From: Opitutaceae bacterium
GTDB taxonomy: Bacteria > Verrucomicrobiota > Verrucomicrobiia > Opitutales > Opitutaceae
Direction of reading: 5' to 3'
DNA length: 64,000 bases
Assembly (NCBI GenBank): GCA_015075305.1
Contig: JABTUS010000003.1
Location: forward strand, 372,001 to 436,000
Under the pieces are notes generated by a model. The model was not told the origin of the DNA. It made no database searches and saw only the letters and a list, made by a program, of their open reading frames with translations. The position numbers and the translations under genes are program-made. Each line of letters opens with the position of its first letter. Position 1 is the first letter of the stretch. Below are positions 46,070 through 64,000 of the stretch, piece after piece.

Positions 46070-46229
46070 CCTCTCCCAGAGATCGTCGGAGCGGCGTTGA
46101 ATGCAATGAGCATGCGGCATGGGAGAGGCCCCCGCTTTCATGTCGCTCTGCATCGGGATTGCCAGCTGGCGGAGCTTCCTTTCTATCGACCGTGGCGTCG
46201 CGCAAGCGTCATTGTCGCGACCCGTACCC

Positions 46230-46904: not shown

Positions 46905-48268
46905 AGCCGCTCCCCATCCGCTGGAGGTTTGCCGTCTGGACGTCGGGCATGACGACCTTCATTCTGCTCATCTATTCCGGATTCACGCTGCTCAACTTCT
47001 TTCAGGAGCAGATCGAGGCGGTCGATCTGGAGATAGCGGCGGAGGGAAACCGCCTGCTTGGCATGAAGGACCTCGCCGAAATGGAAGAGGAGGCGAGGGA
47101 GGTTGAATTGTATGCCCCCTGGCTCGGGCATGCGGTGCTCGATGACATTGGATCGGTGAACTTCCGCAGCGCCCGGCTGACGGACAGGCTGGTGCGGGCC
47201 GCGCACGAGACGGGCGTGCCGCGAACGTTTCAGGAAGGCGGGGACAGCTGGAGGATCGCGGTGTTTTCCCGTTCGGGGATGTCGGTTCTCATTGCCTACA
47301 ACCTGGACGAGGTTTGGAGCACCCTGGAGGACCTCGTGATGGCGTATGCGTTTTCGCTGGCAATCGTGGTGGGCATCACGGCCGCATGCGGCTGGTGGAT
47401 TTCCGGACGACTGCTTCGGCCGCTTGGGGAACTCACTGCGGCGGTGGAGCGGGTCGAAACGGAGAAACTTGGCGAACGCATGTCTGTTCCGGCTGCGCGG
47501 GACGAACTTCAGCGCCTCACCATCGTTTTCAATGCGATGCTTGCGCGGCTGCAGGAGAGCTTCGAACAGGCGCAGCGATTTGCCGCCGACGCATCCCACG
47601 AGCTGCGGACACCGCTCACGATCATGCGGGGTGAGGTGGACGGCTTGATGCGCGCGCAGGACATTACCCCGGAGCACCAGAAAAGGCTGGTGAGCGTCCA
47701 GGAGGAGATTGCGCGCCTGCACCATATCACGGACAATCTGCTGTCGCTGGCCCGGTTCGACACGGGATCAGTGCAGATTCCCATGCAGGAATTGGATCTA
47801 TCCGCGCTCGTTGCGGAGGCCTGTGACGATGCTGAGCTTCTCGGGGAGAGCCGGCATGTCCGGATCGAGCGAGATTTGAACGGGCCGCAGAGGGTCGCCG
47901 GAGACAAATCTCACATCCGCCGCGTGGTGCTCAATCTGCTCGACAATGCGATCAAGTTCAACGTGCCCGGCGGGGTCGTACGCTGCTCGCTTGCCGCCGA
48001 GCGCACGGGAGCCGTGCTTCGAGTCGGAAACTCCGGGCCAGGCATCCCGTCCGAGATGAGGCCCCGGCTCTTTCAGCGTTTTTTTCGCGCGGATCTAAGC
48101 CGGGGTGACACTGATCGGGGGCATGGTCTCGGCCTGAGCCTCAGCCGCGAAATCGCGCGGGCGCACGGTGGCGACCTGCGGTTGTCGGACTCCACGACGG
48201 CCGATTGGACGGAGTTCGAGTTCACGATGCCCCCGGCGTTTGGAATCCCGGGATCCATGCGATCGTGA
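46901..48268 (+). CDS. Membrane sensor histidine kinase
   Basis: A 455-residue kinase with two membrane helices (about 12-32 and 148-168) enclosing a 115-residue periplasmic sensor, a HAMP domain (ISGRLLRPLGELTAAVERV), HisKA with His233 in ADASHELRTPLT, and a HATPase: N-box VVLNLLDNAIKFNV, G-boxes GNSGPGIP and DRGHGLGLSLSREI. Coupled to the response regulator by a 4-base overlap. The signal is unknown; an acidic periplasmic patch (EEEAREVELY) could sense cations or cationic peptides as in PmrB/PhoQ, which is speculation. Confidence 0.92.
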   Translation: MKPLPIRWRFAVWTSGMTTFILLIYSGFTLLNFFQEQIEAVDLEIAAEGNRLLGMKDLAEMEEEAREVELYAPWLGHAVLDDIGSVNFRSARLTDRLVRAAHETGVPRTFQEGGDSWRIAVFSRSGMSVLIAYNLDEVWSTLEDLVMAYAFSLAIVVGITAACGWWISGRLLRPLGELTAAVERVETEKLGERMSVPAARDELQRLTIVFNAMLARLQESFEQAQRFAADASHELRTPLTIMRGEVDGLMRAQDITPEHQKRLVSVQEEIARLHHITDNLLSLARFDTGSVQIPMQELDLSALVAEACDDAELLGESRHVRIERDLNGPQRVAGDKSHIRRVVLNLLDNAIKFNVPGGVVRCSLAAERTGAVLRVGNSGPGIPSEMRPRLFQRFFRADLSRGDTDRGHGLGLSLSREIARAHGGDLRLSDSTTADWTEFEFTMPPAFGIPGSMRS

Positions 48269-48324
48269 ATGCCGGATCGAGCGCGAGCCATTGACGCAAC
48301 CACGGGACAACCTAGCTTGGGCGG

Positions 48325-50448
48325 GTGCGTCTTGATGAACTTTCCAGCTTGCAGCAGTTGGTGCTGCCGGACCGGTGGCAGGCGGAGGCCATTCAGGCGC
48401 TGCGGGCGGGAAAGGATGTGATCGTCGACGCACCGACGGGGGCGGGGAAAACCTATGTTTTCGAGCGGTGGGCGGAGCAGACCAATTTTTCTAGGCGCGC
48501 GCTTTTCACCGTGCCGACGCGCGCGCTCGCCAACGACAAGTACGCCGAGTGGCGCGAGCGCGGCTGGCGGGTCGGCATCACGACCGGCGATCTCACCATC
48601 GACTCCCAGGCCCCCCTGGTTGTCGCCACGCTCGAGGCGGTGCAGCACCGGGTTGCGGCTCCGCGACACGAGTCGGGCGGCGATACGCCGCCGGAGTTCC
48701 GGCTGCTCGTTGTCGACGAATACCAGTGGCTCGCGGATGAGCACCGCGGCTCCCATTACGAGGGAGTTCTGCTTTCCGCCGCGCGAGGCCTGCAGTTGCT
48801 GCTGCTCTCCGGCGCGGTCGGGAATCCGGAGGATGTCGCAGCCTGGCTGAGGCGGCTCGGTCGCGACGTTGTCGTTGTTCAAACACGGCGGCGTCCCGTG
48901 CCGCTCGAGGAAGTCGAGGCTGATGATCTTGTGCGCGGTCTCCCGCGAACGGTGGAGGGATTCTGGTCGCGGCGCGTGGCGGGGGCGCTGCGCGAGGGGC
49001 TCGGGCCCGTGCTTGTCTTTGCTCCGCACCGCTCCGAGGTGGAGCGTCTGGCGCGACAGTTTGCGCGTGAGCTTCCCCTGCCGGATCCCCTGACATTGTC
49101 GCAGGAACAGGAGAGCGTCTGCGGACCTGGGCTGGCGAAGCTGCTGAAGGCGCGGGTGGCGTTTCACCACAGCGGTCTGACCTATGCGCAGCGCGCGGGT
49201 GTGATCGAACCGCTTGCGAAGGCCGGGCAGCTGCGCGCCGTCGTGGCGACGCTTGGTCTGAGCGCGGGCATCAATTTTTCCCTGCGCTCCGTCATGATCA
49301 CGGCGGGAAGCTATCGCCACGGCCAGCGCGAGCACGAGATCGAGCCGCATGAACTCCTGCAGATGGCGGGACGCGCGGGACGCCGGGGCCTCGATGAGAT
49401 GGGATACGTGCTCGTCAGCAGCTCGACGCCGCGGCTGCGGCGCGCGGCGCAGATGCGTTTGAAGCGTGCAGGGCCGCTGCCGTGGGCCTTCATGCTCCGG
49501 CAGCTCCGCGCCGGGGAAAACGTGCGCGCTGTGACGGCCGCCGCCGCGCATCGTTTTTTCACCGAGCAGCCGATGGTGCTTGGTGCGGAGCAGACAGGTC
49601 GGCGGCGATCCGGCGGTCTGCCGTGCGACCAGCGCACGGACACGGGACGCGCGAGACTCGTTCGACGGGAAAGGAACCCCTTCCCGGCGTGCCGCACCTG
49701 CGCGCATCGCGCGGAGTGCCTGGCACTTTCGCCGCAGCCCACGCTGCTCTGGCAGCTTCAGCGCGTGGGCGTGCTGGACCAGGAGCTCAGGCTCACGGCG
49801 CGCGGGGAGATTGTATCCAATTTTCTAGGACCGGAGGGGCTTGCGATCGCGGCGGCGCTGGAGGATCGTGCCTATCCCCTGGATGCGATCGTCTTTGACA
49901 TCGCGAACATCACGTCCGGCGAACGGTTTTCCGGAACCAACCCGCGCGTGCTCGGACGGCTCTCAGCGGTCTGTGAGAGGACCTATCGACGCCAGACAAT
50001 CGAGGGGTATCTCGAGAACGGCATTCCACCGCAGTATGGATTCGGTGCCGCGGACGTTGTGAAGGCGCGCGTTGAAGGCGAGCGCCTTCGCGCGCTTGTC
50101 GATGCGCAGGAGACCGCCGGTCGTGGGGACATTGATCGATTGATGACGGAGTGGCGCTCGCTGCTGAAACAGATCGCATCGGCTTCGCCGATCAGCGAAA
50201 CGGCGGTCTCTCACGGTTCCTGCTCACGACAACCCGGTGGAGAAGCGGCTGCGATTCGACTCATGGAACGGTGGGACAACCTTCGCTCACTCGCGCATGC
50301 TCACCTGAGTGAACTGCGCCCTGGGAGCCTGCCGGAACTGCCCGCGCTTCTGGCTGAGCAGCGGCGTCCGATCAATCATCGCTTCCACTCGCGAACGCAT
50401 GCGCAGACAATGAATCCCCTGGCGCGAAGGCCTGCGGTTTCCGCCTGA
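48325..50448 (+). CDS. Ski2-like superfamily 2 helicase with a four-cysteine motif
   Basis: A 707-residue helicase starting at GTG 48325. Motifs: Q-like LPDRWQAEAIQALRAG, Walker A DAPTGAGKT (35-43), Ia VPTRALANDK, DExH-box as DEYQ (131-134), SGAVGN (motif III), FAPHRSEVERLARQ, VVATLGLSAGINF and the motif VI QMAGRAGRRGLDEMGYV. That set is Ski2/Hel308/Mtr4-like, although the winged-helix/ratchet parts are short. An insert at 434-465 has Cys434, 456, 459, 465 in the spacing C-X21-C-X2-C-X5-C, as in AddB/Cas4 iron-sulfur domains. Function unknown: DNA repair or RNA metabolism. Confidence 0.85.
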   Translation: MRLDELSSLQQLVLPDRWQAEAIQALRAGKDVIVDAPTGAGKTYVFERWAEQTNFSRRALFTVPTRALANDKYAEWRERGWRVGITTGDLTIDSQAPLVVATLEAVQHRVAAPRHESGGDTPPEFRLLVVDEYQWLADEHRGSHYEGVLLSAARGLQLLLLSGAVGNPEDVAAWLRRLGRDVVVVQTRRRPVPLEEVEADDLVRGLPRTVEGFWSRRVAGALREGLGPVLVFAPHRSEVERLARQFARELPLPDPLTLSQEQESVCGPGLAKLLKARVAFHHSGLTYAQRAGVIEPLAKAGQLRAVVATLGLSAGINFSLRSVMITAGSYRHGQREHEIEPHELLQMAGRAGRRGLDEMGYVLVSSSTPRLRRAAQMRLKRAGPLPWAFMLRQLRAGENVRAVTAAAAHRFFTEQPMVLGAEQTGRRRSGGLPCDQRTDTGRARLVRRERNPFPACRTCAHRAECLALSPQPTLLWQLQRVGVLDQELRLTARGEIVSNFLGPEGLAIAAALEDRAYPLDAIVFDIANITSGERFSGTNPRVLGRLSAVCERTYRRQTIEGYLENGIPPQYGFGAADVVKARVEGERLRALVDAQETAGRGDIDRLMTEWRSLLKQIASASPISETAVSHGSCSRQPGGEAAAIRLMERWDNLRSLAHAHLSELRPGSLPELPALLAEQRRPINHRFHSRTHAQTMNPLARRPAVSA

Positions 50449-51389: not shown

Positions 51390-51602
51390 GCCTTGATTGA
51401 CAGTTCAAACAAGACAGACGCCGAGAGGAAAGTGAGCCGGAAATTTCGATTGCGTGTGAAGAACTCGCGGACGTGGAAAGGCCGAGGGGCGTCGTAAGAA
51501 ATTCGCAATGAAATATCGTTGTTTTATATCTTATTTAATACCAGTATATAACAATAATAGTTCAATAGGCGAAATCGAGTGAAATTGCGGAAACCAGCGT
51601 GC
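51390..51602. other. AT-rich flank of the mobile element, no gene seen
   Basis: About 210 bases with no gene; from about 51510 it is strongly AT-rich (TTTTATATCTTATTTAATA), unlike the GC-rich chromosome. It probably contains the promoter of the upstream minus-strand gene. Confidence 0.4.
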
Positions 51603-51608
51603 TGTACG

Positions 51609-51643
51609 TTGACGTTGATCTTGTCACATTTTAAGGTGGGACA
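51609..51643. repeat. Left-end transposase-binding site (L1)
   Basis: Terminal inverted repeat core plus the rest of the site, ending TTAAGGTGGGACA. The 28 bases 51616-51643 recur exactly at 62331-62358. It is the only such site visible at the left end. Confidence 0.75.
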
Positions 51644-51716
51644 TGTCCAAAACATCCGGGCAGCAGAAAGCACCGGGCTTGAGGGCTCGGCGCTAAAGAA
51701 AAGGAACTGCGGAAAA

Positions 51717-53255
51717 TCAGACCGTCAGTGTTTCTGCCAACGATCGATTCTGGTGAATTCTGGTATCAGGAAAAGTGGGTGCAGATGCCGTGCATCGGTG
51801 TTGCAAAGGCTGCTTTGTGTCGCGCTTCAGGGGCGCCTCGTGAGATTGAGGCACGCGTATTTCTGGAGCATGCTTTTGCGCCAGTGATCCTCGTTTCCGC
51901 CCCGAGGATTTCGGCTGCGGCAAGGACCTTTGGATTCCGTTTGAGGTCGAAATACTGTACCCCAACGCTTGCTTCACGACGTCGATATTTATTTGAGGCT
52001 CCTTGGAACGATTCTGGGCGTCCCGGATCTCCAGGACAGCGCGGCGAAGCCGAGCAAATGGGAGGTCGCCTGATGCGGCGAAACTGACGAGAAGCTCTAG
52101 AATCTCATTGGAGGCGTAGGGAAATTCAAGCTGAGCAACGGCCGCGATATCCGCTCTATTTGGCGCTGGATTCAACCTTGCCCACTTCATGATCCTTCCG
52201 CGAAACTGATTGGTGTTGAATCCGGTTGTCCTCTCCATCTCTTGGATTCGTCCGGTAAACTGTGGGGTGACAACCAGGACGACTGGGATGCCGCGATTCA
52301 CAAATTCGGTGCGGATGTATTCCAATCGCTTCATTGATGCGCGTTGCGATAGCCCGAAAAGACAGTGGGCTTCATCGAAAATCAACATGAGGTCACGGCT
52401 TTGGGTCGCTGCGCGAATCTGTAGCCGCAGTTCGCCGGTATCGCCCTTGTTGGATTCGCCACAACCGATGGCTTTCCAAATCTCCTGGTAGAACTGCTGG
52501 TCGTTGGTTCCCGCCGTGAGGTCGATCAGCCGTGCGCAATCGGAATTACACTCCTGCCAAAGGCGAACTCCCATTGATTTCCCCAATCGTTCAGCTCCCT
52601 CAATTACGCCGAGCGTTTTTGATTGATGGCAGAAACGGAGGACGTCCGCCACATGCGAGGTGATAGATGTCTGTGCGACGCGATCGCGCGCCGATTGCCT
52701 GCGGGCCTCAATGGCGGTCCAAAGCACATCCATGACTCCTTCAAAATAGGGAAAGTGAATCTTCCTGCCAGGCGACAAACAGAAATCATGAAGCACGCGC
52801 GGCAAGAGAAGGACGCGTTCACGGCATATCTTGATCAACTCCGCTCCTGTGGCTTTTCGATTTCGCGGATTAAGGTCCGCACTTAATTTTGAATAGTCCC
52901 TATCGTTCCAAGCCATTTCCATCTTGATTGCATCTATTGAGCGATGGTCGTGGTGGTCGATCTCTCCGCAAATCGCCTCATAGACTTCTCCACTGTAGAT
53001 ACTTTGCAGGCTGACGCCTGCGGCGCGAAGAGACGGCGTTCCAAGCTTGTCGGGTACGACCCGCTTCAGCATTTCAAAAGCCAACTGAACGAGACCGCCC
53101 TCCTGATGAGAGATCGCGTGAAGCAACCACGCGAGACGGCGGGATTCCGAATTCGCAATGCTCTCGACCGCCGTTGCAACTTTCTGGGCAGGGAGCGGCG
53201 GCTGCGAATGGTCCGCGCGCAGTTCAGAGAGTTCGATTGGTGCAGTTGGACTCAT
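51717..53255 (-). CDS. MuB/TnsC-like AAA+ transposition ATPase
   Basis: A 512-residue ATPase that should load the transposase onto target DNA and govern target choice and immunity. Walker A is GAERLGKS (220-227), slightly degenerate, and Walker B is LMLIFDEAH with Asp294 and Glu295; sensor-like VVLVVTPQFT follows. The N-terminal 200 residues have no family I recognise and are larger than in MuB (312 residues in total), so a DNA- or partner-binding role is likely. The C-terminus is a basic disordered tail. Last gene of the operon; it overlaps the transposase gene by 4 bases. The 327-base gap up to 51389 holds the left end. Confidence 0.75.
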   Translation of the reverse strand: MSPTAPIELSELRADHSQPPLPAQKVATAVESIANSESRRLAWLLHAISHQEGGLVQLAFEMLKRVVPDKLGTPSLRAAGVSLQSIYSGEVYEAICGEIDHHDHRSIDAIKMEMAWNDRDYSKLSADLNPRNRKATGAELIKICRERVLLLPRVLHDFCLSPGRKIHFPYFEGVMDVLWTAIEARRQSARDRVAQTSITSHVADVLRFCHQSKTLGVIEGAERLGKSMGVRLWQECNSDCARLIDLTAGTNDQQFYQEIWKAIGCGESNKGDTGELRLQIRAATQSRDLMLIFDEAHCLFGLSQRASMKRLEYIRTEFVNRGIPVVLVVTPQFTGRIQEMERTTGFNTNQFRGRIMKWARLNPAPNRADIAAVAQLEFPYASNEILELLVSFAASGDLPFARLRRAVLEIRDAQNRSKEPQINIDVVKQALGYSISTSNGIQRSLPQPKSSGRKRGSLAQKHAPEIRVPQSHEAPLKRDTKQPLQHRCTASAPTFPDTRIHQNRSLAETLTV

Positions 53256-55711
53256 CCCTCGTATGGATTGATTTCCTTCACGCCCAAACGGGCAAGGTGC
53301 TCGAGACTTGCGGTGAGTTCCGGCGTGATGGACGAACTCCGCACTGTGGTGCCGACAGATTGAGCGGCTCTCGTAGCGCGATTCGCGAGGCGGTTTTGCT
53401 GTTGCATGGATGCGTGCATCTCCGCCTGCTGACTTTCCATCTGAACGCCGAGCCGTGATGTCGGAGGATCGGCCAGGATAAGATTGCGGCGCACACGAAG
53501 GAACTCCTCGGGGAAGTTTTTCTTCAGATGGCCAAATAGCGTGCGCGCATGTTTCGTGTGCGCGTGATTTTCTCGCTGCGCCTGGGAGATCTGCTCGGCG
53601 GAGGCATTGTACGCGTCAACCTTGGTTGACCGTTGAACGGTAAACGGATTCCGGCTGTCGAGATCGGTGATGCAGATTGAGTTGGGATCCTCGGGATTGA
53701 ACCATGCAAGGACCTTCTCTCCCTGCTTTGCGCCCGTGAACTCGTTCTTGTAGGTAAATTTTCGACGACCGATGGAGATCGTGACACCGTTGGCTTTCAC
53801 ACGTGTTTCGACCCGACTGCGACTCAAAAGGAATCGATATTCGGATCCCAGTCTTACGGGTGGATCACGACGAAGGGTGACAAATGCGGACTCAGGGGAT
53901 TGCCCGTTCAGCAGCTTCCCTTCCTGCCGTTCAGTGTTGTAGACGTTGCAGATGGATTCCAGTTCCGTCATCCATTCCGGCATGGAAAAGAAGAATTCCG
54001 CCGGGTGTGCTCTTCCTGCCAGGACTGCCTGCAATGCGCGCTTGGTTTCCTCCGGGCAGTCAACCCGCTCATCGCGGCCGCAGTAGCCTCGCAAACGGTT
54101 CATCTTGTCCTGGAGCGCCCCGAGAACACGCTCGACGATCTTGGCGCGGGGGGTATGCGCATGACGCACGTTCACCCCGAGCGCCGAAAGGCCGTGCGTG
54201 AAATCTTTCCACGGAGTGCGTGTGTGCCGCGAGCCGTCGATCAGCTTGGATTCCCAGATGCCTCGCTCGAAATACAAGGTTTCCGGGAGACCGTACTCAT
54301 CATGAAGGCGTGCAATCCCTCGGACGATCTCGATCGAATCGTAGGTCTTTTCGGGAATGAGCTGAAACGTGACAATGTAGGTGGTGCGCGTATCAATCCA
54401 CGGCAGGAACTGACCTCTGGTGAGAATGGGCTGCCCCTTCTCGTTCAAGCGCGGGCGGCCGCAGGCGTCAGGCTCCCAGAAGTAAACAGGCAGGGTGCAA
54501 TCGTCGCTTTGGAATTCCAGCCCGGATGCCATGTTCCCATAGTCGCGCTCGATGTATGGCCCTTGGAGCTTCGCGTGGTGCGGGCCGATGACGTGCGGCC
54601 TCAGCCGTTGCACTTCCGGGCCGAGCGATCGCCGAATCGAATGCGGGACGTGTGATTTGCGCGCAGACAATACGTCATAGGTGGCGCACACAGAGTCAGG
54701 CATCCATCCTTCACTGGCGGCTTCACGCCATGCCTGGGCGAGGCCCCCGGCACTGTGCATTGCGCGAGCGACAAGCTTCTCTCTAAACCGGCCGGGAATC
54801 TCGGAGGCGCGGCAACGCCCGTTGGCGATGCGACCGTCGGTCAACGCAACCAAGCGGCGGCCTCCGGCGCGCCATTTCGCGATGACCCGTGAGATTTTTC
54901 GTTCCAAGGCGCGTCCTCGCGCCGGAATGAACGGCACTTTGTTTTCAATCACTCGGCGAAGGTCCCGCAAGGCCTTCGTCTCTGAAACTCCTTCACAGGT
55001 CGCTTCATGCAGGCAGGAGCAGGCGGAGTCCCAGAACGTTGAAAGAGCCTTGTCGTCAATTTGGCCCTCCTTCATCAGAAGGACCGAGGTGTGAAGCATC
55101 CCGTGCCAGCGCTCATCTGAACCAACGATGATTGTGGAAGTCTTTTTGCGGCTGAGACGGTCGGGAAGATAAATTTCCAATCTGTCCCATGCTTCGGCGC
55201 CGCGATCGCGGGATAGCGTGCGATCAATGAGCCGATCAAAGTGGCGGCGAGAGACCGTTGAACCAAACGTCGACGCATACGCTCTGAGGCCGGCATCGAT
55301 GACCTGCTCACGATCGATTGCGGAGAGGCTCAGTTTTTCAAGGATCGATCCAAGGACACTTTGAAGTCGCTGCGCATGCTGCAGTGTTGCGGCTGGAAGT
55401 TCCGCGAGAGGGATGGATGGCTCCCAATTTCCTGGAGGATGAAGCAGGAGGCGCTCAGTCGAATTGTATCCCCGGCGGGTAGCTTCCTCTTCGAGGCGTT
55501 TCTGAAGGTCAATCGGCAGCGAACAAAACAACCAGGCTGCGGTTCTCTGACCGTTCACCAATGCAACGCCGTCCGGGGTGACCTCAAAAAGCGCGCGACG
55601 TACGCTCCGCGGTGGCCGGGACAAGGCGTCAGCGATCGCAACGGCCGTGTACATTCCGGCGGTGGGCATCACTGGATATTGTGGCAGGATTTGTTGTAGG
55701 AGACTCGACAT
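53252..55711 (-). CDS. Mu-type DDE transposase
   Basis: An 819-residue transposase, larger than MuA (663). N-terminal 190 residues look like DNA-binding helices (YTAVAIADALSRPPRSVRRA). The integrase core has the first acidic residues in FQSDDCTLPVYF (Asp403/404), a second position at LYFERGIWES (Glu482) where relatives carry Asp (LYFDNG), and Glu527 in AKIVERVLGAL. The Mu C-terminal beta-barrel follows (ISIGRRKFTYKN, KVLAWFNPEDPNSICITDLD). A Glu at the second site would be unusual. It is coupled to the ATPase by a 4-base overlap. Confidence 0.85.
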   Translation of the reverse strand: MSSLLQQILPQYPVMPTAGMYTAVAIADALSRPPRSVRRALFEVTPDGVALVNGQRTAAWLFCSLPIDLQKRLEEEATRRGYNSTERLLLHPPGNWEPSIPLAELPAATLQHAQRLQSVLGSILEKLSLSAIDREQVIDAGLRAYASTFGSTVSRRHFDRLIDRTLSRDRGAEAWDRLEIYLPDRLSRKKTSTIIVGSDERWHGMLHTSVLLMKEGQIDDKALSTFWDSACSCLHEATCEGVSETKALRDLRRVIENKVPFIPARGRALERKISRVIAKWRAGGRRLVALTDGRIANGRCRASEIPGRFREKLVARAMHSAGGLAQAWREAASEGWMPDSVCATYDVLSARKSHVPHSIRRSLGPEVQRLRPHVIGPHHAKLQGPYIERDYGNMASGLEFQSDDCTLPVYFWEPDACGRPRLNEKGQPILTRGQFLPWIDTRTTYIVTFQLIPEKTYDSIEIVRGIARLHDEYGLPETLYFERGIWESKLIDGSRHTRTPWKDFTHGLSALGVNVRHAHTPRAKIVERVLGALQDKMNRLRGYCGRDERVDCPEETKRALQAVLAGRAHPAEFFFSMPEWMTELESICNVYNTERQEGKLLNGQSPESAFVTLRRDPPVRLGSEYRFLLSRSRVETRVKANGVTISIGRRKFTYKNEFTGAKQGEKVLAWFNPEDPNSICITDLDSRNPFTVQRSTKVDAYNASAEQISQAQRENHAHTKHARTLFGHLKKNFPEEFLRVRRNLILADPPTSRLGVQMESQQAEMHASMQQQNRLANRATRAAQSVGTTVRSSSITPELTASLEHLARLGVKEINPYEG

Positions 55712-55722
55712 CCCGAAAGCAA

Positions 55723-56064
55723 TCAGGCTGGTTGCCCGATATTGGAAAAGGTCCCTGCCGCGGGGCCGGCTACGCAGATTTGTAGCTCGTTTGATTCACT
55801 CATTCTGACCGTGATATTCAGGAGCACCCGTCCATTTGCGGTCTCAGCGTCCTTTTGATTTTTTGCCGCCCACATGCGCGGCTCGCACACGCGTTGCCAG
55901 AAGGCAGACAGAGCGCCATTGCCAACCTGCAATCCAAACTGAGCGAGAATTCGGCGGCGCGCTTCTGCATAGGTCACCCGCTCTTGCGTCAGCCACATGA
56001 ACAGGCTGTCCTGGTAGTTCGATGGAAGCTGCAGAAGCACGGGAATTTTTGCTGGTTTAGGCAT
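55723..56064 (-). CDS. Small element protein, paralogue of the 117-residue protein
   Basis: A 113-residue protein whose middle (YAEARRRILAQFGLQVGNGALSAFW, given here with a break: YAEARRRILAQF, then GLQVGNGALSAFW) matches the product of 57378-57731 (YQSATNRILKEF, then GVKISVGALQCAY). Both look like small HTH-type proteins, reminiscent of Mu gp27 (DUF3486), but I cannot confirm that. It overlaps the previous gene by 8 bases and lies 11 bases before the transposase. Confidence 0.6.
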   Translation of the reverse strand: MPKPAKIPVLLQLPSNYQDSLFMWLTQERVTYAEARRRILAQFGLQVGNGALSAFWQRVCEPRMWAAKNQKDAETANGRVLLNITVRMSESNELQICVAGPAAGTFSNIGQPA

Positions 56065-56509
56065 GGCGGGTGGATTGCCGCAGTCGGAGGGTTGATCGCA
56101 GATGGCGCTTGCCGCGGACCGCAGGCCGTTTCAGCGCATCGCGCTTTTCCACTAAATCGAAAGCCTCGCTCACAAGACGTGAAGTTTCGTTCTCAAACCA
56201 CCGGATCACACTGGAACGCCTGATGCCGGTGCCGGCGGCTGCCTTATGTTTTGGCCCACATTCCAGGAGGCACGCCAATGCGCGGCCCAAGTGAAGCGAC
56301 TCAAACACAAGCTCATCGATCTTCGTTTGGAGACTTTCGACAGTAAGATTGCGAATGCGTGTGGTAGACTTGCCATAGAATCCAATTCCTGGGCATTTTG
56401 ACCCGCACCCGCGGTGTTGGTATGGATTTGTCGGGAAAGTCTCTGCAAGGGCAGTTGCAAGCGCTGCAAGGAGGCAATGCGCCGGTTCAATCAGCATCAT
56501 GGCGCGCAT
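56057..56509 (-). CDS. Element protein of unknown function
   Basis: A 150-residue protein with helical segments (LTVESLQTKIDELVFESLHL; SEAFDLVEKRDALKRP) and a basic, Arg-rich C-terminus. It starts directly after the stop of the preceding 69-residue gene and overlaps the next gene by 8 bases. No recognisable family. Confidence 0.5.
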   Translation of the reverse strand: MRAMMLIEPAHCLLAALATALAETFPTNPYQHRGCGSKCPGIGFYGKSTTRIRNLTVESLQTKIDELVFESLHLGRALACLLECGPKHKAAAGTGIRRSSVIRWFENETSRLVSEAFDLVEKRDALKRPAVRGKRHLRSTLRLRQSTRHA

Positions 56510-56719
56510 CTATTGGGAAAGCGGCTGCTTTTCCACTTCCGCCGTATCCTCGGCAACGAAATCCTCAACATATCGCATCGCGATTTCTTTTGCCGACTTT
56601 CTCGTGGCAGGATCGTTGAGGTCGCTGAGGTGTAGGTTTGAAAGCACACCGTTGAGCGCGGCTGCTTTGTAGAGTTGTCGTACCGAAAAGGAAGGCGATC
56701 GACGCTTGTATTGGTTCAT
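56510..56719 (-). CDS. Small element protein of unknown function
   Basis: A 69-residue protein, basic at the N-terminus (MNQYKRRSPSFSVRQLYKAA) and acidic at the end (RYVEDFVAEDTAEVEK). No known family. Its place inside a run of closely packed same-strand genes supports it as real. It ends at the base before the next gene starts. Confidence 0.5.
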   Translation of the reverse strand: MNQYKRRSPSFSVRQLYKAAALNGVLSNLHLSDLNDPATRKSAKEIAMRYVEDFVAEDTAEVEKQPLSQ

Positions 56720-56799
56720 GAGAAATTTTGCTGGCCCCTTGTGCTGAGTATCCGCTGGGCCGACGTGATGTTCGAGGTCATGGGCGGGAGGCGGCGGAG

Positions 56800-57381
56800 T
56801 TATGCGCTGGTGCGAGTTTGGCCTTCGAGCGGGCGTGTCCTATCCCCTTTGGCGAAACGACTCTTTGCGGGCTCTTTCGGACGTCTCTCAACCTTTAACG
56901 CGGCGAGCGTTTGGCCGTTTGAAGCTTCATACTGGCGATTGCGGATCCGGAAAAGAAACTGCTCGAATCTCTGATTGAACCTCGTCACCTCAGCATAGGC
57001 TTCTCCGAATGTGATGTCGCTGCCTTCTGGTGCCTTTCCTGGCATCGAACCCAATAGTTCGATCTGCACATCGAGAGGTTGCTCATCCAGGCGGTCCAGA
57101 AGGTAGGTGAACGCTGGCAGCTCCCCGTCATACGGACACATTTCTTGAAGCTTCAATCGAAGCGCCGCCGCATATCTCCCAACGGTTTGAGCGGCATCGA
57201 AGAACTCGTCGGCCAGACGATGGCACTCCTCGCAGATTTCCGGCTCATACCAGAGGAGTGCAGCAGACTTGAGAATATTCGCCCGCTTGAAAACTGGTTC
57301 TGAGCGGCTCGTGTCCAGCGTGAAGTACAGGAGATTGGCCGGGCCATTTTCATTTTCGCTGAAAGGCATTTTCGAATTCAT
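56800..57381 (-). CDS. Element protein of unknown function
   Basis: A 193-residue, mostly helical, acidic protein (SAALLWYEPEICEECHRLAD; EAYAEVTRFNQRFEQFLFRI). It overlaps the 117-residue gene upstream by 4 bases. No domain recognised. A Cys pair (CEEC) near residue 50 could bind metal, but two cysteines alone are weak evidence. Confidence 0.55.
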   Translation of the reverse strand: MNSKMPFSENENGPANLLYFTLDTSRSEPVFKRANILKSAALLWYEPEICEECHRLADEFFDAAQTVGRYAAALRLKLQEMCPYDGELPAFTYLLDRLDEQPLDVQIELLGSMPGKAPEGSDITFGEAYAEVTRFNQRFEQFLFRIRNRQYEASNGQTLAALKVERRPKEPAKSRFAKGDRTRPLEGQTRTSA

Positions 57382-57731
57382 TTTTGGAGATTGAGGGTGA
57401 GGTTGATGGAGATGCTTTTGTTGTCGGAGCTGGCATCCACGGTAACTTCAGGATGGCGCTTCAGGGGCAGGCGGCGGGACAAACGGGTATAGGCGCATTG
57501 CAGCGCGCCCACGCTGATTTTTACGCCGAACTCCTTCAGGATTCTGTTCGTCGCCGATTGGTAGGAGATGCCCCGACCCAATGATCCGCCTGTCGTCAGC
57601 CAGCCGAATACGAGCTGCTTTTGATCGAGCGTGAGACGGTCGAAAGTCGAAACATGACTTGGATTCAGTTTGCGGAGCGTGTACATCTTGAATCGATTTG
57701 TTGTCCCGAACCCCTCCGCTCGGGACCACAC
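57378..57731 (-). CDS. Small element protein, paralogue of the 113-residue protein
   Basis: A 117-residue protein from a GTG at 57731 preceded by AGGA; ATG 57686 is an alternative start. The segment YQSATNRILKEFGVKISVGA is homologous to YAEARRRILAQFGLQVGNGA in the product of 55723-56064. Two diverged copies in one small element suggest a working pair, for example subunits of one DNA-binding complex. Its stop overlaps the next gene by 4 bases. Confidence 0.6.
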   Translation of the reverse strand: MWSRAEGFGTTNRFKMYTLRKLNPSHVSTFDRLTLDQKQLVFGWLTTGGSLGRGISYQSATNRILKEFGVKISVGALQCAYTRLSRRLPLKRHPEVTVDASSDNKSISINLTLNLQK

Positions 57732-57774
57732 GGATGGTCTTCCTGATCACATGCGTGTCAGGAGTCGGGAATTG

Positions 57775-58596
57775 TTAGGCCTGCGGCTCTTGATTCGCAG
57801 GAACTTCAACAGGCGCGCCAGAGGCAGCGCCGAGCGATTGACCTGCGATCTGCTCGTCTGATGCGCGATCATTGGGATCGGTGGGGTCATTGGGAACGCG
57901 CTGCGCTGAATTCTCGCGAGGCGGAAATTTCAATGGAGCCACAACGCGGCCTGCCGACATCGGTTCCCCTGTCGGATTGAAGGGGCTGCGTGTGGGCAGG
58001 AAACGCATCCAGTCCGGCACCTTTTTCGCCGCCTCAATGAGAACGGTTTCGATTGCCTCGGCGGCGACGAGCAGACTGGACCTCTCTTGGTATCCGGGAA
58101 ATTCCTCGAAAGGCTGATTCACGTAGGCCGAGTCCATACCCAGAAACCGAAAGACGGCGATCTGGCCGTCGGCATAGCAATGAGTGCGCCTTGCGGCCTC
58201 CTCAGCTGACTGTTGATCAGCGTAGAAAGGTTGCAGCGCGGCGACAATCGTTTCGAGCCTGTTTGCGAGTACAACAGAGAGTATTTTCGCAATCAGCTCA
58301 CCCGCGGGGCGAATCATCTCCCGAAGCGACTTGCACGCCTCAAGCATGGCCATTTTGCGGACCTCTTGTGCCTTGCGGCAGACATCGAGACGCACCTGCA
58401 TCTCTGTCGCCCGGCGGATTGCTTTGTCGTTGGTGTAGTCAATGTCGCCCGCGGCAGCGATGGCCTTGACAAATTTTTCCTCGTCTTCGATCGCGGTGAG
58501 CCAGGCCGTCCGCATGCGGGCGACAGTTTGAAGAGAATCTTGGATCTTCACCAAGAAACCCTTCGCAGTATCTATTCTTTCGGGATCAATATTCAT
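57775..58596 (-). CDS. Helical element protein of unknown function
   Basis: A 273-residue protein. Residues 1-130 form long amphipathic helices (IDTAKGFLVKIQDSLQTVAR; RRATEMQVRLDVCRKAQEVR), and the last 60 residues are Pro/Ala-rich and probably disordered. It follows the portal gene by 20 bases. In Mu the gene after the portal encodes a head-morphogenesis protein, but I see no similarity to it. Confidence 0.55.
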   Translation of the reverse strand: MNIDPERIDTAKGFLVKIQDSLQTVARMRTAWLTAIEDEEKFVKAIAAAGDIDYTNDKAIRRATEMQVRLDVCRKAQEVRKMAMLEACKSLREMIRPAGELIAKILSVVLANRLETIVAALQPFYADQQSAEEAARRTHCYADGQIAVFRFLGMDSAYVNQPFEEFPGYQERSSLLVAAEAIETVLIEAAKKVPDWMRFLPTRSPFNPTGEPMSAGRVVAPLKFPPRENSAQRVPNDPTDPNDRASDEQIAGQSLGAASGAPVEVPANQEPQA

Positions 58597-58616
58597 AGCA
58601 TTCTTGAAAGCAGTTG

Positions 58617-60008
58617 TTACCGATTGCGGAGAACGGACAGGAGCATCGGGAGTCCATACCCGACAGCAAATTTCGAGCTGCCTGGCTTCGGCGCGTCCGG
58701 CAAATCCTTGACCGTATCGCGCATGCGCGCTTCAGGCTCTGGGAGTAATTGCAGAAATTGTTCCAGAGCGGTCCGCTCGGCGGCGCGGTTCCTCGCGAGG
58801 GATATCGAACGACTCAACGAGGAGGGAATCGATGTGGGGTATCGTATCGCGGGCATTGGCTCAACGGCCGCGAGCTTCAGGCCGGTTTTTTCACTCAGCT
58901 CCGCAGGGTTCACCCGGAAGCCGGCGGCTGCGGCTTTCACCGCGTGTTCCAAAATCGCACCTGCATCCCGCTTGGTTCTTGGAGCTAGCTGGAAGTATGC
59001 GAGAGCCGGTTGATCGTCGGACAAACCCAGGATGGCACGGTCAAATTGACGCTGGAAGATTTCAGATATCTCCACGGCCTCCGCTTGCGCGAGGATTTCG
59101 AAAGTGTTCTGGTGCGCAGCGCTCAGGCCGGTCCCGAGGCCGGTGGGCACCGCCAGCATCGTGAGTTTGCCAGCTGTGCCGGCGAGAACGAGCTGCTCAT
59201 CCTGGTAGCTCAAGTGATCGCGGAATGGATTGATCCCGCGCGCACCGTCGCCCGCCGTTTGGATCTTCGCCCCCGAGGGAAGCGTGCCGCGCATGTCGCC
59301 GATCACAGCCTCGGCCATGGCCTGGTATTCGGCCTCCTTCCCCTGCGGAGTATTGGCGGGCATCTCGACGAATGCCGGCGGCACACCGTACACCTCGACG
59401 AATCCATCCCAGTCCTTCTGGGAAAGGTTCTTGCGCAGGAAGCAAACGAGCCCGATCTCATTGATCGGCGACTTCACTTCGCGTAGCAGGAAGTGCTTTG
59501 AATCAATTGCCTGTCCGCAAGAGGCCCGATCGCTGGCATCCGCGTGATAGCGCCACTCCCCGGTTTGAGGATCCCGCGACCAGTGCCATTGCTCCACGGG
59601 TTCGAGCCGGATCACATCTGAATGAGATGCCGCTCCTTCATAGTGCTTTTCCAAGTGGGAATACCCCCGGAATTCCGCAAGGGCAAGAAACGCAATCGCC
59701 TCACGCAGATTGGAAATTTTTTCGTATGCATCGCGGAGAATCCTCGCCTGGGTGTCCGCCTTCAGGGACTCGGCGCCGCTCACCTGCTTGATGTCCCAAT
59801 CAAGTTTCTGGATCGCTCCAATGCGAAGCCGAAGCAAGCCGCGGAGGGTTGCGTCCCGCTTCTCAATGAATCGATAGGTCCATTGCAAGTCTGCAAACCT
59901 TCCGCGTTCTCCCTCCTCGAGAAATGCGACTGCCCGTCCAAGCGTGATCCCGCGGAGTGGGTTGTACTGGGCGCGCCAGCCAGCAGATGCAATTTTCCCC
60001 AGGCTCAT
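58617..60008 (-). CDS. DUF935 portal protein (Mu gp29-like)
   Basis: A 463-residue protein with the DUF935 portal pattern: EEGERGRFADLQWTYRFIEK, then IQKLDWDIKQV, and DWDGFVEVYGVPPAFVEMPA, matching Mu gp29 FAEFLEIYGLPMRVG. The following GTLPSGAKIQTAG and QFDRAILG are also as in gp29. A portal forms the ring through which phage DNA enters a capsid. The start at 60008 is preferred (long upstream extension has no similarity). It lies 2 bases after an HTH gene, with no terminase or capsid neighbour. Confidence 0.85.
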   Translation of the reverse strand: MSLGKIASAGWRAQYNPLRGITLGRAVAFLEEGERGRFADLQWTYRFIEKRDATLRGLLRLRIGAIQKLDWDIKQVSGAESLKADTQARILRDAYEKISNLREAIAFLALAEFRGYSHLEKHYEGAASHSDVIRLEPVEQWHWSRDPQTGEWRYHADASDRASCGQAIDSKHFLLREVKSPINEIGLVCFLRKNLSQKDWDGFVEVYGVPPAFVEMPANTPQGKEAEYQAMAEAVIGDMRGTLPSGAKIQTAGDGARGINPFRDHLSYQDEQLVLAGTAGKLTMLAVPTGLGTGLSAAHQNTFEILAQAEAVEISEIFQRQFDRAILGLSDDQPALAYFQLAPRTKRDAGAILEHAVKAAAAGFRVNPAELSEKTGLKLAAVEPMPAIRYPTSIPSSLSRSISLARNRAAERTALEQFLQLLPEPEARMRDTVKDLPDAPKPGSSKFAVGYGLPMLLSVLRNR

Positions 60009-60010
60009 GT

Positions 60011-60328
60011 TCAAACGACCCGTCGTTCGAGAATTCGCGCGATGTCCGAGGCGATTCCCTGGAGGGTTTCTTGGGGCATCGCTTCCAGATGCTGGTTGCG
60101 ACTGGTGCTGCTCACGCGGCAAAGCATGAATCGATGGAACTCCTCCACTGAAACACGCAGCGTCTGACGCGTGTTGATGGAGCGGCCGAGATGGAAGGCT
60201 CCCAGAGTCCCGTCATGAATCAGGTTTGTGACGTGGTCTGGTGACACCCTGAGAACCCGCGCGATTTCACCGACGGTGAGTGTCTTCCGCCCAGGGAAAC
60301 TGAGAATGCAATCGACGTTTTCGCTCAT
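60011..60328 (-). CDS. Excisionase-like HTH DNA-binding protein
   Basis: A 105-residue protein with a MerR/excisionase-type helix-turn-helix: LTVGEIARVLRVSPDHVTNL followed by IHDGTLGAFHLG and RVSVEEFHRFM, as in DNA-binding excisionase-family proteins that read their target with one short HTH domain. It overlaps the next upstream gene by 4 bases. It may control the operon or assist transposition. Confidence 0.75.
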   Translation of the reverse strand: MSENVDCILSFPGRKTLTVGEIARVLRVSPDHVTNLIHDGTLGAFHLGRSINTRQTLRVSVEEFHRFMLCRVSSTSRNQHLEAMPQETLQGIASDIARILERRVV

Positions 60329-60561
60329 GGGGATTCCGGGGTCTGCCTGTGCATGGCGGCCATGGCGAAGACCGCATCCTGCTTGGTCGTTCGCATCAGC
60401 CCTTCGAGAGCCGAGATCCGCCCGGCGAGCTCGGCACGCTGGGCACGGCTCTTGGCGGTCGAGCCTATGATCGCATCGCCGTCATCCATGAGCTGGAGAA
60501 TCTGATGCAGGACAACCAGGTTAGCTTTGACCCTCTTGAGTGAAACCTGCAGTGTGTTCAT
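60325..60561 (-). CDS. Small helical element protein
   Basis: A 78-residue protein (MNTLQVSLKRVKANLVVLHQ onward) with heptad-like helix SRAQRAELAGRISALEGLMR. The frame runs up to 60777, but the start at 60561 overlaps the neighbouring stop by 4 bases, in line with every other junction here. No known family. Confidence 0.6.
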   Translation of the reverse strand: MNTLQVSLKRVKANLVVLHQILQLMDDGDAIIGSTAKSRAQRAELAGRISALEGLMRTTKQDAVFAMAAMHRQTPESP

Positions 60562-60749
60562 GCGACGTGCTGCAGCGGCGCTGCAGGGACAAAGAAACCG
60601 TGTTTCTCGAGGGTTTGCCGGCTGATGGTCGAGCCCTCGGGATGCCCCGGAATGTTCGCCGTGAGGTTCCACAGTTCGATCGAAGGGAAGACGCCAAAGC
60701 CGTCTTGGATGCCGTGGAAAACGGCGGGAGCGATGGGGCGCAAGTTCAT
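60558..60749 (-). CDS. Small element protein of unknown function
   Basis: A 63-residue protein (LRPIAPAVFHGIQDGFGVFP, then SIELWNLTANIPGHPEGSTI). It overlaps both neighbours by 4 bases. The pattern of ISRQTLEKHGFFVP could be a short HTH. No known family. Confidence 0.55.
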   Translation of the reverse strand: MNLRPIAPAVFHGIQDGFGVFPSIELWNLTANIPGHPEGSTISRQTLEKHGFFVPAAPLQHVA

Positions 60750-61021
60750 GCCTCGCCCTCCGTTTCATGTGTTTCAAGAGAGCGGGGCTTGCACCAGTTG
60801 ATAGTTGCGCCCAAGGCGATCTCGACCTTCGTTCTACCGCGCTTGGACTTATTTCCCCCGCAAGCGATGTTGTACACCGTGCGAATATTGAGTCCCGTGA
60901 GGCTTGCGAGGTCTTCGAATCGAAGGCCTCGGGACAAGAGCACCCGATGCAAAGGGGTGATCGAAAGTTCTCGTGCGCGGGCCGGGGCTTTTGCGATTGA
61001 AAGCTTTACACGAGAACTCAT
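60746..61021 (-). CDS. Ner/XRE-like HTH protein, first gene of the element operon
   Basis: A 91-residue protein with a helix-turn-helix: PLHRVLLSRGLRFEDLASLT followed by GLNIRTVYNIACGG. In Mu the matching place, divergent from the repressor, is held by Ner, which shuts down early transcription; this protein could have the same role. It opens a run of overlapping genes that ends with the ATPase. Confidence 0.65.
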   Translation of the reverse strand: MSSRVKLSIAKAPARARELSITPLHRVLLSRGLRFEDLASLTGLNIRTVYNIACGGNKSKRGRTKVEIALGATINWCKPRSLETHETEGEA

Positions 61022-61045
61022 ATTCTGGTGTTAACCACTACACAT

Positions 61046-61077
61046 AAAAGATAGTGAATCAACACAAAAAAGATAGT
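61046..61077. promoter_or_regulatory. Candidate operator: direct repeats at the repressor start
   Basis: AAAAGATAGT occurs at 61046-61055 and 61068-61077, exactly 22 bases apart (about two helical turns), spanning the repressor start codon. A near-palindrome GGTGTTAACCAC lies at 61027-61038 in the same divergent gap. Both suit binding by the repressor or the Ner-like protein. Confidence 0.5.
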
Positions 61078-61557
61078 TTGTCTCGAACATTTGCGCGTTC
61101 GCTTCGAGCGGCCAGAGGGGAAAGATCCCAAGCAGAATTTGCTAGGTATTTGGGAATCAAACACCAACAAACGTATCAACGATACGAAAATGGCCTAATT
61201 CCTGGAGGCGATACCCTACACGAAATCGCTCTCCGTATCGGTGTCACAATTGATGCGCTTTTGAGCGGCGCACAACCAAAGGAGCTTGATCAGATGCCAC
61301 CCGCTGGACGATTCGACTCCTATGACATTTATACGCTAGGGTCTGTTGAAGTGATCCGTGTGTTTTGCCGACGAATGACAGCGGATCAGTTGTATCTAGT
61401 TTCGGAGGACGTGCTAAAGGATGAGACGTTGACGGATTCTTCGCGATGCTTTTGGGTAAAAATATTGATGCCCGAACTGTTGAAAGCCATCAAAGATGAG
61501 CTTGGTATTCCTAAAAGCGAGCAGGCCAAAGATACGTCAAAGGAGCAGAGTTCCTGA
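61054..61557 (+). CDS. XRE-family repressor of the element
   Basis: A 167-residue regulator starting at GTG 61054, with an HTH at residues 10-60 (SLRAARGERSQAEFARYLGI, then KHQQTYQRYENGLIPGGDTL) and a C-terminal region that has no peptidase (LexA/CI) signature. It is the only plus-strand gene in the element and is divergent from the long operon with just 32 bases between, the layout of the Mu c repressor. Its coding sequence is AT-richer than the host genes. Confidence 0.8.
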   Translation: MNQHKKDSLSRTFARSLRAARGERSQAEFARYLGIKHQQTYQRYENGLIPGGDTLHEIALRIGVTIDALLSGAQPKELDQMPPAGRFDSYDIYTLGSVEVIRVFCRRMTADQLYLVSEDVLKDETLTDSSRCFWVKILMPELLKAIKDELGIPKSEQAKDTSKEQSS

Positions 61558-61721
61558 GCACCGGAAGCCTTGACGAAAGCGACAAAGAAGGGCACCCCGT
61601 GAGGAGTGCCCTCTTGCCACCCGGTGCCTGGATGCCGAAGCCCCCTGGCCGAACGTCCGAAACGCGGCTGATGCGCAGTTCGAAACCAACATCTTTGAAG
61701 AATGCCCGCAAGCCGATTTGG

Positions 61722-61747
61722 TCCTCCTCTATTATAATAGAGGAGGA
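61722..61747. repeat. Perfect 26-bp palindrome
   Basis: TCCTCCTCTATTA followed at once by its exact reverse complement TAATAGAGGAGGA. It would form a 13-bp stem with almost no loop in DNA, so it is more likely a binding site for a dimer than an RNA hairpin, or a cruciform. Confidence 0.8.
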
Positions 61748-61798
61748 ATTCCGGGACTCGGACCTTGCGATCGCCGTGCGGGTCGATTGCATCGCGTC

Positions 61799-61853
61799 GG
61801 CCATCGCGGCCGTCCCGGACGTTAGCCTTAGGGGAGGAGCAATCCTCATCTTT
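61799..61853 (+). repeat. 55-bp direct repeat, copy 1
   Basis: Identical to 62052-62106 except for two neighbouring bases (CC versus TT). It begins GGCCATCGCGGCCGTC and includes the inverted repeat GAGGA-GCAA-TCCTC (61834-61847), which can form a hairpin. Confidence 0.85.
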
Positions 61854-62051
61854 TGACGCGGTGGCCATTTCTCTTTTGCACGGATGAAACTCGTCAGCGT
61901 CAGGGCCTCGCAATTTTCGTTGCCGGGAGTTTCGCTTGGAATGGCAGCGAGCTTGAAGAATTCTGAAACACTGGGTCTCCTTCGGGGTTGATTGGAGATG
62001 AAGCTACACGGCGGGCTTGCAGATTGAGGCGGGAGCGATTGTATCGGCTTG

Positions 62052-62106
62052 GCCATCGCGGCCGTCTTGGACGTTAGCCTTAGGGGAGGAGCAATCCTCA
62101 TCTTTG
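62052..62106 (+). repeat. 55-bp direct repeat, copy 2
   Basis: Second copy, 253 bases after the first, with the same internal GAGGA-GCAA-TCCTC hairpin. The sequence around both copies is related but diverged, so a longer duplication probably produced them. Confidence 0.85.
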
Positions 62107-62330
62107 ACCGCGGTGACCACTTTGTCTTCGAGAGGATGATTTTTTGCGAGTGTCAGATTTTTCTCCGCCAAGGGAATGACGCTGCAAGGTGACTTCGATC
62201 AACCTGCAATTTTCGGCTTCTGACGGCGTCATCGATACGCCGGGGCGGACCATCTCGGGAAAGACCTGAGAGATGTAATTGCCTATGACTATCGATTGAA
62301 AGTGTCCCACGTCCCACCTTTTGTTTACGA

Positions 62331-62472
62331 TGATCTTGTCACATTTTAAGGTGGGACACTTCTGTGAATATCAGCATTACCTGCTGCTAATTAGTTAGAT
62401 ACGCCGATCAGAAGTTTGTGAACATGTCCTACCTTAAAGTGGACAAGATCAAAAAAGGTGGGACAAGATCAA
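62331..62472. repeat. Right-end internal transposase-binding sites
   Basis: Three copies of the end site. 62331-62358 is identical to the left end (51616-51643) in the same orientation. 62421-62452 is an inverted, slightly changed copy that contains ACATGTCCTACCTTAAAGTG. 62457-62472 is an inverted partial copy (GGTGGGACAAGATCAA). A further inverted GGTGGGAC lies at 62301-62320. Confidence 0.75.
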
Positions 62473-62556
62473 CCTGAGAAGTGGCATTTAGATTGTCGCC
62501 TAAGTCGTTGATCCATGGGACAGTTCAGGATAATCCATGCTGGTGCGCTGATTTTC

Positions 62557-62581
62557 TGAAATGTGACAAAATCAACGTCAA
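62557..62581. repeat. Right terminal inverted repeat
   Basis: TGAAATGTGACAAAATCAAC followed by GTCAA; the reverse complement matches 51609-51633 at 23 of 25 bases. The presumed element end is the CA at 62586-62587. Confidence 0.8.
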
Positions 62582-62656
62582 TCCTCAGCTGTGAATAACT
62601 TGTTGGTAAAAAACCCGTAAACGCAGCTCTCTTTCCTTGACCGAAGTGGCATAAAA

Positions 62657-62681
62657 TGGGGAAATATGTGGCGAAGTGGAG
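62657..62681 (+). promoter_or_regulatory. Possible MraZ-box-like repeats upstream of mraZ
   Basis: TGGGG (62657), TGGCG (62669) and TGGAG (62677) are spaced 12 and 8 bases apart upstream of mraZ. MraZ proteins bind repeated TGGGN or GTGG-type boxes about one turn apart, so this may be the autoregulatory site. TTGACC at 62637 could be a -35, but no good -10 follows at the usual distance. Confidence 0.35.
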
Positions 62682-62699
62682 GACGGTCGCCACTCCCCT

Positions 62700-63152
62700 A
62701 TGTCCACCATTGGCACAACGTTTTACACCGGCCTGTTCAGGCATTCCCTCGACGAGAAGAATCGCGTTACGATTCCATCGCCGTGGAGAGCTGCGCATGC
62801 CGATGGGGACCAGTTCCTGGCGACGTGTCATCCGAATGGTTACATTGCGGTTCTGCCTCCGGCTGAAGTTGAAAAGCTTCGCGAGCGGGTTTCGGAGATT
62901 CGTCTCTCCGATACATCCGGCCAGGACTTTCTGGCGCGGTTCTTTTCGAAAACCCAGGCGGTCTCTTTCGATTCCCAGGGACGTGTGATGTTCAATGCCG
63001 ATCTGCTCCGGCATGCCGGCATTGGCAGGGAGGCCGTGCTTACGGGCACGATGAACAAGTTTTTTGTGTACAGTCCGGAACGCTGGGCCCAGGTCGCGGA
63101 GCGCACGGGTGGCGAGTCCGAGCTCGATGTCATGCGCCGGGTGGGAATCTAG
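62700..63152 (+). CDS. mraZ: Division/cell wall cluster transcriptional repressor MraZ
   Basis: A 150-residue protein (family about 145-150) that binds upstream of the dcw cluster. Two SpoVT-AbrB repeats: FRHSLDEKNRVTIPSPWRAA and KTQAVSFDSQGRVMFNADLL, each with the MraZ D-x-K/Q-x-R core. ATG 62700 is preferred; an in-frame GTG at 62676 would add 8 residues. It is followed 63 bases later by rsmH. The mobile element lies about 110 bases upstream, in its promoter region. Confidence 0.9.
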   Translation: MSTIGTTFYTGLFRHSLDEKNRVTIPSPWRAAHADGDQFLATCHPNGYIAVLPPAEVEKLRERVSEIRLSDTSGQDFLARFFSKTQAVSFDSQGRVMFNADLLRHAGIGREAVLTGTMNKFFVYSPERWAQVAERTGGESELDVMRRVGI

Positions 63153-63215
63153 TCATGGCCCGCGACAATTTCAAATCCCTCCACCTCCTGCTGCAGGCAA
63201 CGCAGCGGCCCGCCC

Positions 63216-64000
63216 ATGCACAGCTTGCCGGCTGAACTGGACATCGAGCCGATGGCAAACGGTCACACGCCCGTCCTTCTCGCCGAGGTGCTGGACTTGC
63301 TCAGACCCCGCGCCGGCGGTCGCTACCTCGACTGCACGTTTGGTGGAGGAGGGCATGCGGCGGCGATACTCGACGCGGCGAAGGATGCCGCGGTCGTGGC
63401 GTTCGACCGCGATCCCTCCGCGCTGCCGCGGGCGCAGGAACTGGCGTCGCGCCATCCCGGGCGCCTGACATTCATCAACGACGACTTCGGATCGCTCACC
63501 GATCTGCGGCAGGCGGGTTTCGACGGGGCGCTCTTCGATCTCGGTGTGTCGTCGTATCAGCTCGACGATGCGGAGCGCGGATTTTCCTTTCGCACGGACG
63601 CACCGGCGGACATGCGCATGGACACGCGCAGCGGCGTTCCCGCGCACCGCTGGCTGGAAACGGCGACCGAGGAGATGCTTGTCCGCGCCGTGCGCGACCT
63701 TGGGGAGGAGGCGAACTGGCGCCGCGTCGTTCGCGCGCTGCTCGCCGCGCGCGGCACCGGACGTCTGGCGCGGACCGCGAGCCTCGCCGCGGTGATAGCG
63801 GAGGCGATTCCCGCACGGGAGCGCTTCGCGTCGCGCATCAACCCCGCGACCCGGACATTCCAGGGCATCCGCATCGCCGTGAACGACGAGCTTGGGGCGC
63901 TTGAACGCGCGCTGCCGGCGGCGTTTGAGCGGCTCGCGGCGGGCGGCGTGCTTGCGGTGATTTCCTTCCACTCCCTCGAGGACCGTCCGGTGAAGCGCTA
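63216..64000 (+). CDS. rsmH: 16S rRNA m4C1402 methyltransferase RsmH, 3' end missing
   Basis: SAM-dependent N4-methyltransferase acting on C1402 of 16S rRNA; gene also called mraW. Seen: [13 protein letters not shown], motif I region [46 protein letters not shown] and DMRMDTRSG, then [19 protein letters not shown] and [13 protein letters not shown]. The window ends after about 261 codons, shortly before the C-terminus of a typical 300-residue protein. ATG 63252 is an alternative start giving the usual [11 protein letters not shown]-terminus. Confidence 0.93.

Follow-up and report, generated by a model that had tools for sequence, protein, structure and literature searches.

MITEs and Rickettsia palindromic elements are short, palindromic sequences found in many copies per genome, in mobile or intergenic DNA. 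The cassette described here is likewise short and palindromic, lies in mobile or intergenic DNA, and keeps an open frame in one of its two genomes (contig L010), but it occurs in two copies per genome, not many, with no dispersed copies found and no target duplication seen. With the structured RNAs of phages and transposons collected in Rfam it has in common predicted hairpins with a GNRA loop and conserved linkers, but it matches no Rfam family. The element carrying it in the window resembles Mu-like and Tn7-like elements in its MuA-like transposase, AAA partner, left-end repressor, multiple end repeats and 5-bp flanking repeat, and is unlike them in being only ~11 kb long and in having, in two genera, a single insertion position upstream of mraZ, which heads the cell-division cluster.

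The window is a 64,000-nt stretch of an Opitutaceae genome (contig JABTUS010000003.1, positions 372,001 to 436,000). In it the initial annotation had marked a duplicated 55-nt block, its copies 253 bases apart and different at two neighbouring positions only, with a GAGGA-GCAA-TCCTC hairpin inside. Both copies are there, and they match at 53/55 positions, the two mismatches being adjacent (61815-61816, CC versus TT); the true offset is 252, the earlier end coordinate having been off by one. The hairpin is also present, though as one among four predicted helices. The longest exact word common to the two blocks is 37 nt, which is not chance, because 500 mononucleotide shuffles of 61500-62700 gave at most 16. 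Weaker similarity around the blocks runs to 104 nt at 82% and ends at both sides, with background identity beyond. Searching the genome itself for the block elsewhere, as had been proposed, returned one place only, the one that holds the pair. Feature coordinates are collected in Table 1.

Table 1. Features of the putative carrier element and its cassettes (window positions, except for the last row)
Feature	Position	Strand	Basis or remark
55-nt block, copy 1	61799..61853	+	copy-to-copy comparison
55-nt block, copy 2	62051..62105	+	offset 252 from copy 1
Predicted cassette, copy 1 (hairpin 1, spacer, large hairpin)	61760..61882	+	four-copy alignment; 83% over 126 nt to L010 1110-1234
Predicted cassette, copy 2	62012..62134	+	four-copy alignment; 92% over 63 nt to L010 1668-1730 and 1127-1189
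Predicted large hairpin, copy 1	61799..61866	+	10-bp outer stem, GGCCATCGCG with CGCGGTGGCC
Predicted inner hairpin GAGGA-GCAA-TCCTC, copy 1	61834..61847	+	four-copy alignment and pairing analysis
Putative Mu/Tn7-like transposable element, carries the cassettes	51606..62587	.	inverted ends, flanks, mraZ spacing, empty sites
Flanking repeat GCTGT	51601-51605 and 62588-62592		five bases each
MuB/TnsC-like AAA protein	51717..53255	-	AAA_22 E 7.6e-12; phrog_296 DNA transposition protein
MuA-like transposase	53252..55711	-	phrog_310, E 3.8e-24; Mu-transpos_C only below its cut-off
Mu-type portal protein	58617..60122	-	Portal_Mu E 4.3e-37; phrog_113
HTH_3 repressor-like protein	61054..61557	+	last gene ahead of the cassettes
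Left-end repeats (candidate transposase sites)	62296..62581	.	including terminal inverted repeat 62559-62581
Right-end repeats	51608..51652	.	including terminal inverted repeat 51609-51631
G155 element	L062 10068 to L063 745		AATTGTG on both sides

By alignment and predicted pairing, the repeated block is the core of a two-hairpin cassette of ~125 nt. Four copies are known in total, two in the window (w1 and w2) and two in L010 (La and Lb). Aligned, they give the order small hairpin (TGCAATC...GATTGCA), spacer, large hairpin; the spacer length differs by 5 nt between the two genomes and the large hairpin is free of indels. Inside the 10-bp outer stem of the large hairpin lie a CGTC-nnn-GACG hairpin, a linker and a GAGGA-GNRA-TCCTC hairpin. 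The linker is 12 nt long, unpaired and nearly invariant across the four copies, and the inner tetraloop is GNRA throughout (GCAA in three copies, GAAA in the fourth). In the proposed structure 98.1% of cells pair, versus 22-59% in slid-partner controls. Just upstream of cassette copy 1, at 61722-61747, the window also has a perfect 26-nt palindrome, TCCTCCTCTATTATAATAGAGGAGGA.

The cassette was found in 2/252 genomes of the family, the window's own and that of a second species of the same genus (G008), with two direct copies in each and the pair lying in mobile DNA in both. Scanning genome contigs for an exact 36-mer returned one record, L010 (JAGOJU010000016.1), from a metagenome-assembled Opitutaceae genome; L010 1-3300 and G008:C13:1-3300 match at 100%, and because the positions agree we treat L010 and contig 13 of G008 as the same. 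An order-level sample of 372 genomes gave three with a match: the window's own and two (G460 and G507, 35.6 bits) whose 24- and 38-nt matches were taken as chance. RNA-model matches in eight other family genomes (24-28 bits, E 0.001-0.008 per genome) were also set aside, as a few are expected by chance with 252 searched; most of them keep the outer stem only, with the core deleted or gapped. Chance was likewise the reading adopted for a 22-nt likeness to the gene that follows the portal (58478-58499; local score 33, copy 2 without clear extension). Exact-pattern scans of viral contigs with three patterns returned nothing, and by blastn a phage collection gave no cassette match and plasmids only two 28-nt matches.

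What the initial annotation had missed is the context of the block, which lies in a mobile element whose insertion site is upstream of mraZ. The carrier qualifies as a Mu/Tn7-like element on its predicted transposase and AAA partner, its inverted ends and its 5-base flanking repeat, and its bounds were taken from the presence of GCTGT on both sides. The terminal inverted repeats are 96% identical over 23 nt, with additional copies within the left end. The cassette pair is placed between the repressor and the left end of this 11-kb element, a stretch that would be its cargo. No Pfam match to a TniQ/TnsD-type protein was obtained among the element proteins scanned, several of which had no match of any kind.

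The insertion lies 112 bp upstream of mraZ. Among same-genus mraZ loci, the mraZ-side homology resumes at 62588-62591 in all 9/9 examined; in three of these nine the right-flank region is directly upstream of mraZ, and they are therefore empty sites. Relatives of the transposase occur in 12/252 family genomes. Five other contigs with such relatives were fetched. One of them, G155, is from another genus and encodes a transposase 56% identical; its 10.7-kb element has its own end repeats and stands 114 bp upstream of mraZ. The other four have no mraZ in the fetched stretches. The end-repeat sequences of the G155 and window elements differ. Neither a cassette nor a Mu-type portal gene was found in the G155 element, and the cassette, being absent from this relative, does not belong to the element's core. 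Among the literature matches listed, no paper announces by its title a transposon or prophage element at the mraZ site, and passage searches of PMC10293859 and of PMC8649781 gave no mention of mraZ.

In the second genome the cassettes are part of a duplication. L010 959-1504 and 1500-2045 are tandem copies, 94.7% identical, which match at 172/174 positions before the cassette, 95/120 within it and 250/252 after it. A 113-nt island, the hairpin cassette, holds 25/29 of the differences (P=8e-14 under uniform scatter, for an interval chosen post hoc), with ~99% identity outside. At five sites w1 sides with La, as w2 does with Lb; at five others the grouping is by genome. Replacement of one L010 cassette by a diverged donor would explain this pattern best, and the tandem duplication could be partly an assembly product, the genome being metagenome-assembled. 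A variable repeat of a diversity-generating retroelement was considered and rejected: an A in either copy is seen at only 7/25 of the differing sites, so the differences are not adenine-directed. The cassette segment is absent from two close relatives, G005 and G007, in which both flanking genes are kept. In L010 the segment abuts an end of a ~2-kb dispersed insertion sequence, for which G007 has an open transposase frame. Insertion-sequence ends flank the insertion in which the two cassettes lie. The stretch L010 809-992 is a deletion remnant of the ~2-kb insertion sequence, with ends CCCGAYTTCGCCAACTGGAG; full copies are present in G007, and G000, G005, G007 and G008 have additional matches to the ends.

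The initial annotation had read stronger conservation of the block than of its flanks as a sign of selection, for instance on a small RNA or binding motif, and had set equally conserved flanks, as after a simple recent duplication, against this. Flanks are not equally conserved. The following Fisher p-values are generous, since the core limits were set with the alignment in view and sequences recur among the six comparisons: core against near flank is 54/60 versus 34/62 for w1-w2 (p=1.5e-5), 59/60 versus 45/62 for w1-La (4.8e-5), 52/60 versus 42/62 for w1-Lb (0.017), 55/60 versus 34/62 for w2-La (4.2e-6), 55/60 versus 35/62 for w2-Lb (9.3e-6) and 53/60 versus 51/67 for La-Lb (0.11). Five of the six bear out the higher conservation of the core, and between window copy 1 and the better-matching L010 copy there is no match beyond the near flanks. 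The observation behind the selection reading therefore stands, while direct RNA evidence is weak and an exchange unit fits equally. The same pattern also follows if the cassette is a unit that is moved or exchanged, an alternative supported by the clustering of differences in the L010 tandem duplication.

With slightly better than even confidence we favour the reading of a ~125-nt two-hairpin cassette, with the block as its conserved core, that mobile DNA carries along as cargo. Recombination between mobile elements would copy or replace the cassette as a unit, and its action would be that of a folded nucleic acid (with the + strand the likelier one to be transcribed) and not that of coding sequence. 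A bolder version makes the cassette a new small structured RNA, or a hairpin module of DNA, that mobile elements of Opitutaceae carry as paired diverged subtypes and swap as a unit; we regard it as unlikely.

Several other readings compete with mobile cargo. The element might make one or two small structured RNAs from the + strand, folded into three hairpins and having a GNRA loop, which could for example regulate transposition or the repressor; we hold this only tentatively, as a possibility on the doubtful side. The outer stem and both inner hairpins are kept in all four copies, and the constancy of tetraloop and linker is as such an RNA would have it. One stem pair passes from A-U to G-C in concert, a change on both sides that 410/500 shuffles equal, there being four sequences only. 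Five pair positions have G-U on the + strand and one has A-C, counts that lean to the + strand, although five against one are too few to fix it. The L010 copies fold with z -3.7 on the + strand relative to shuffles, but equally well on the reverse strand (-3.8 and -4.8), and the window copies give -1.2 and -0.6 on the + strand and -0.8 and -1.7 on the - strand. Rfam returned no match up to E 1 across window 58000-64000, and for the blocks themselves unrelated matches only, far below gathering scores. No promoter-like site for the cassette was found, and terminator-like matches were no more frequent than in shuffles. A packaging-type or protein-binding DNA site, retained twice close to the element's left end, would account for the location between repressor and left-end repeats and for strong conservation at unpaired and paired positions alike. 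The related G155 element lacks the cassette, and the second genome (G008) has no transposase match of this type at all, and we think this account distinctly improbable.

A decaying coding relic, that is, a fragment of a phage or regulator gene duplicated along with the element, also seems improbable. It draws on L010, where the cassette takes up a frame of 44 codons that has ATGA overlaps at either end and adjoins a gene start resembling phage morphogenesis genes, and a peptide from this frame is possible; in addition, a + strand frame resembles 'VSLREGEILI' of an AraC-type regulator. Substitution patterns speak against it. Across the six frames of the indel-free core there are 6-11 synonymous versus 27-35 non-synonymous codon pairs, the changes are spread across all codon positions with no codon-like pattern in any frame, and the single frame that leans to third positions is riddled with stop codons. 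The 5-nt gap between copies breaks the reading frames, peptide matches beyond the two genomes are weak (best E 0.003), and the ORFs tested had no match in Pfam or PHROG. The specific idea of an AraC-regulator relic (L033), to which the RNA model and peptide searches had pointed, was dropped, as equally weak matches fell in unrelated genes or antisense frames. The phage-like ORF of L010 has weak relatives in seven other family genomes and none among viral contigs. The cassette might, again with distinctly low probability, be a MITE whose ends are the 10-bp outer stem; it is short, has palindromic ends and occurs in a mobile-DNA context, but each genome has only two copies, always paired and none dispersed, and in the alignment the stem ends show no target duplication.

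Taken alone, the cassette is a small repeat of modest interest. It would matter more if the paired subtypes were shown to be transcribed and to regulate a transposable element, or if a dedicated mechanism lay behind the exchange within a fresh duplication. Of wider interest is its carrier, apparently a compact Mu/Tn7-like element found in two genera at one and the same site upstream of mraZ.

Two further observations concern the surroundings of the cassettes. A Mu-type portal gene lies between the repressor and transposase genes of the element, which is too small for a whole Mu-like phage, and no late phage genes were recognised in it besides the portal. The neighbours on its right side, at window 46119-50448, are three + strand genes, which encode a protein with weak DUF4263-type matches, a phrog_857 protein and a DEAD-type helicase resembling HamB/BrxH models; judged by these matches, the three genes are possibly a defence cluster.
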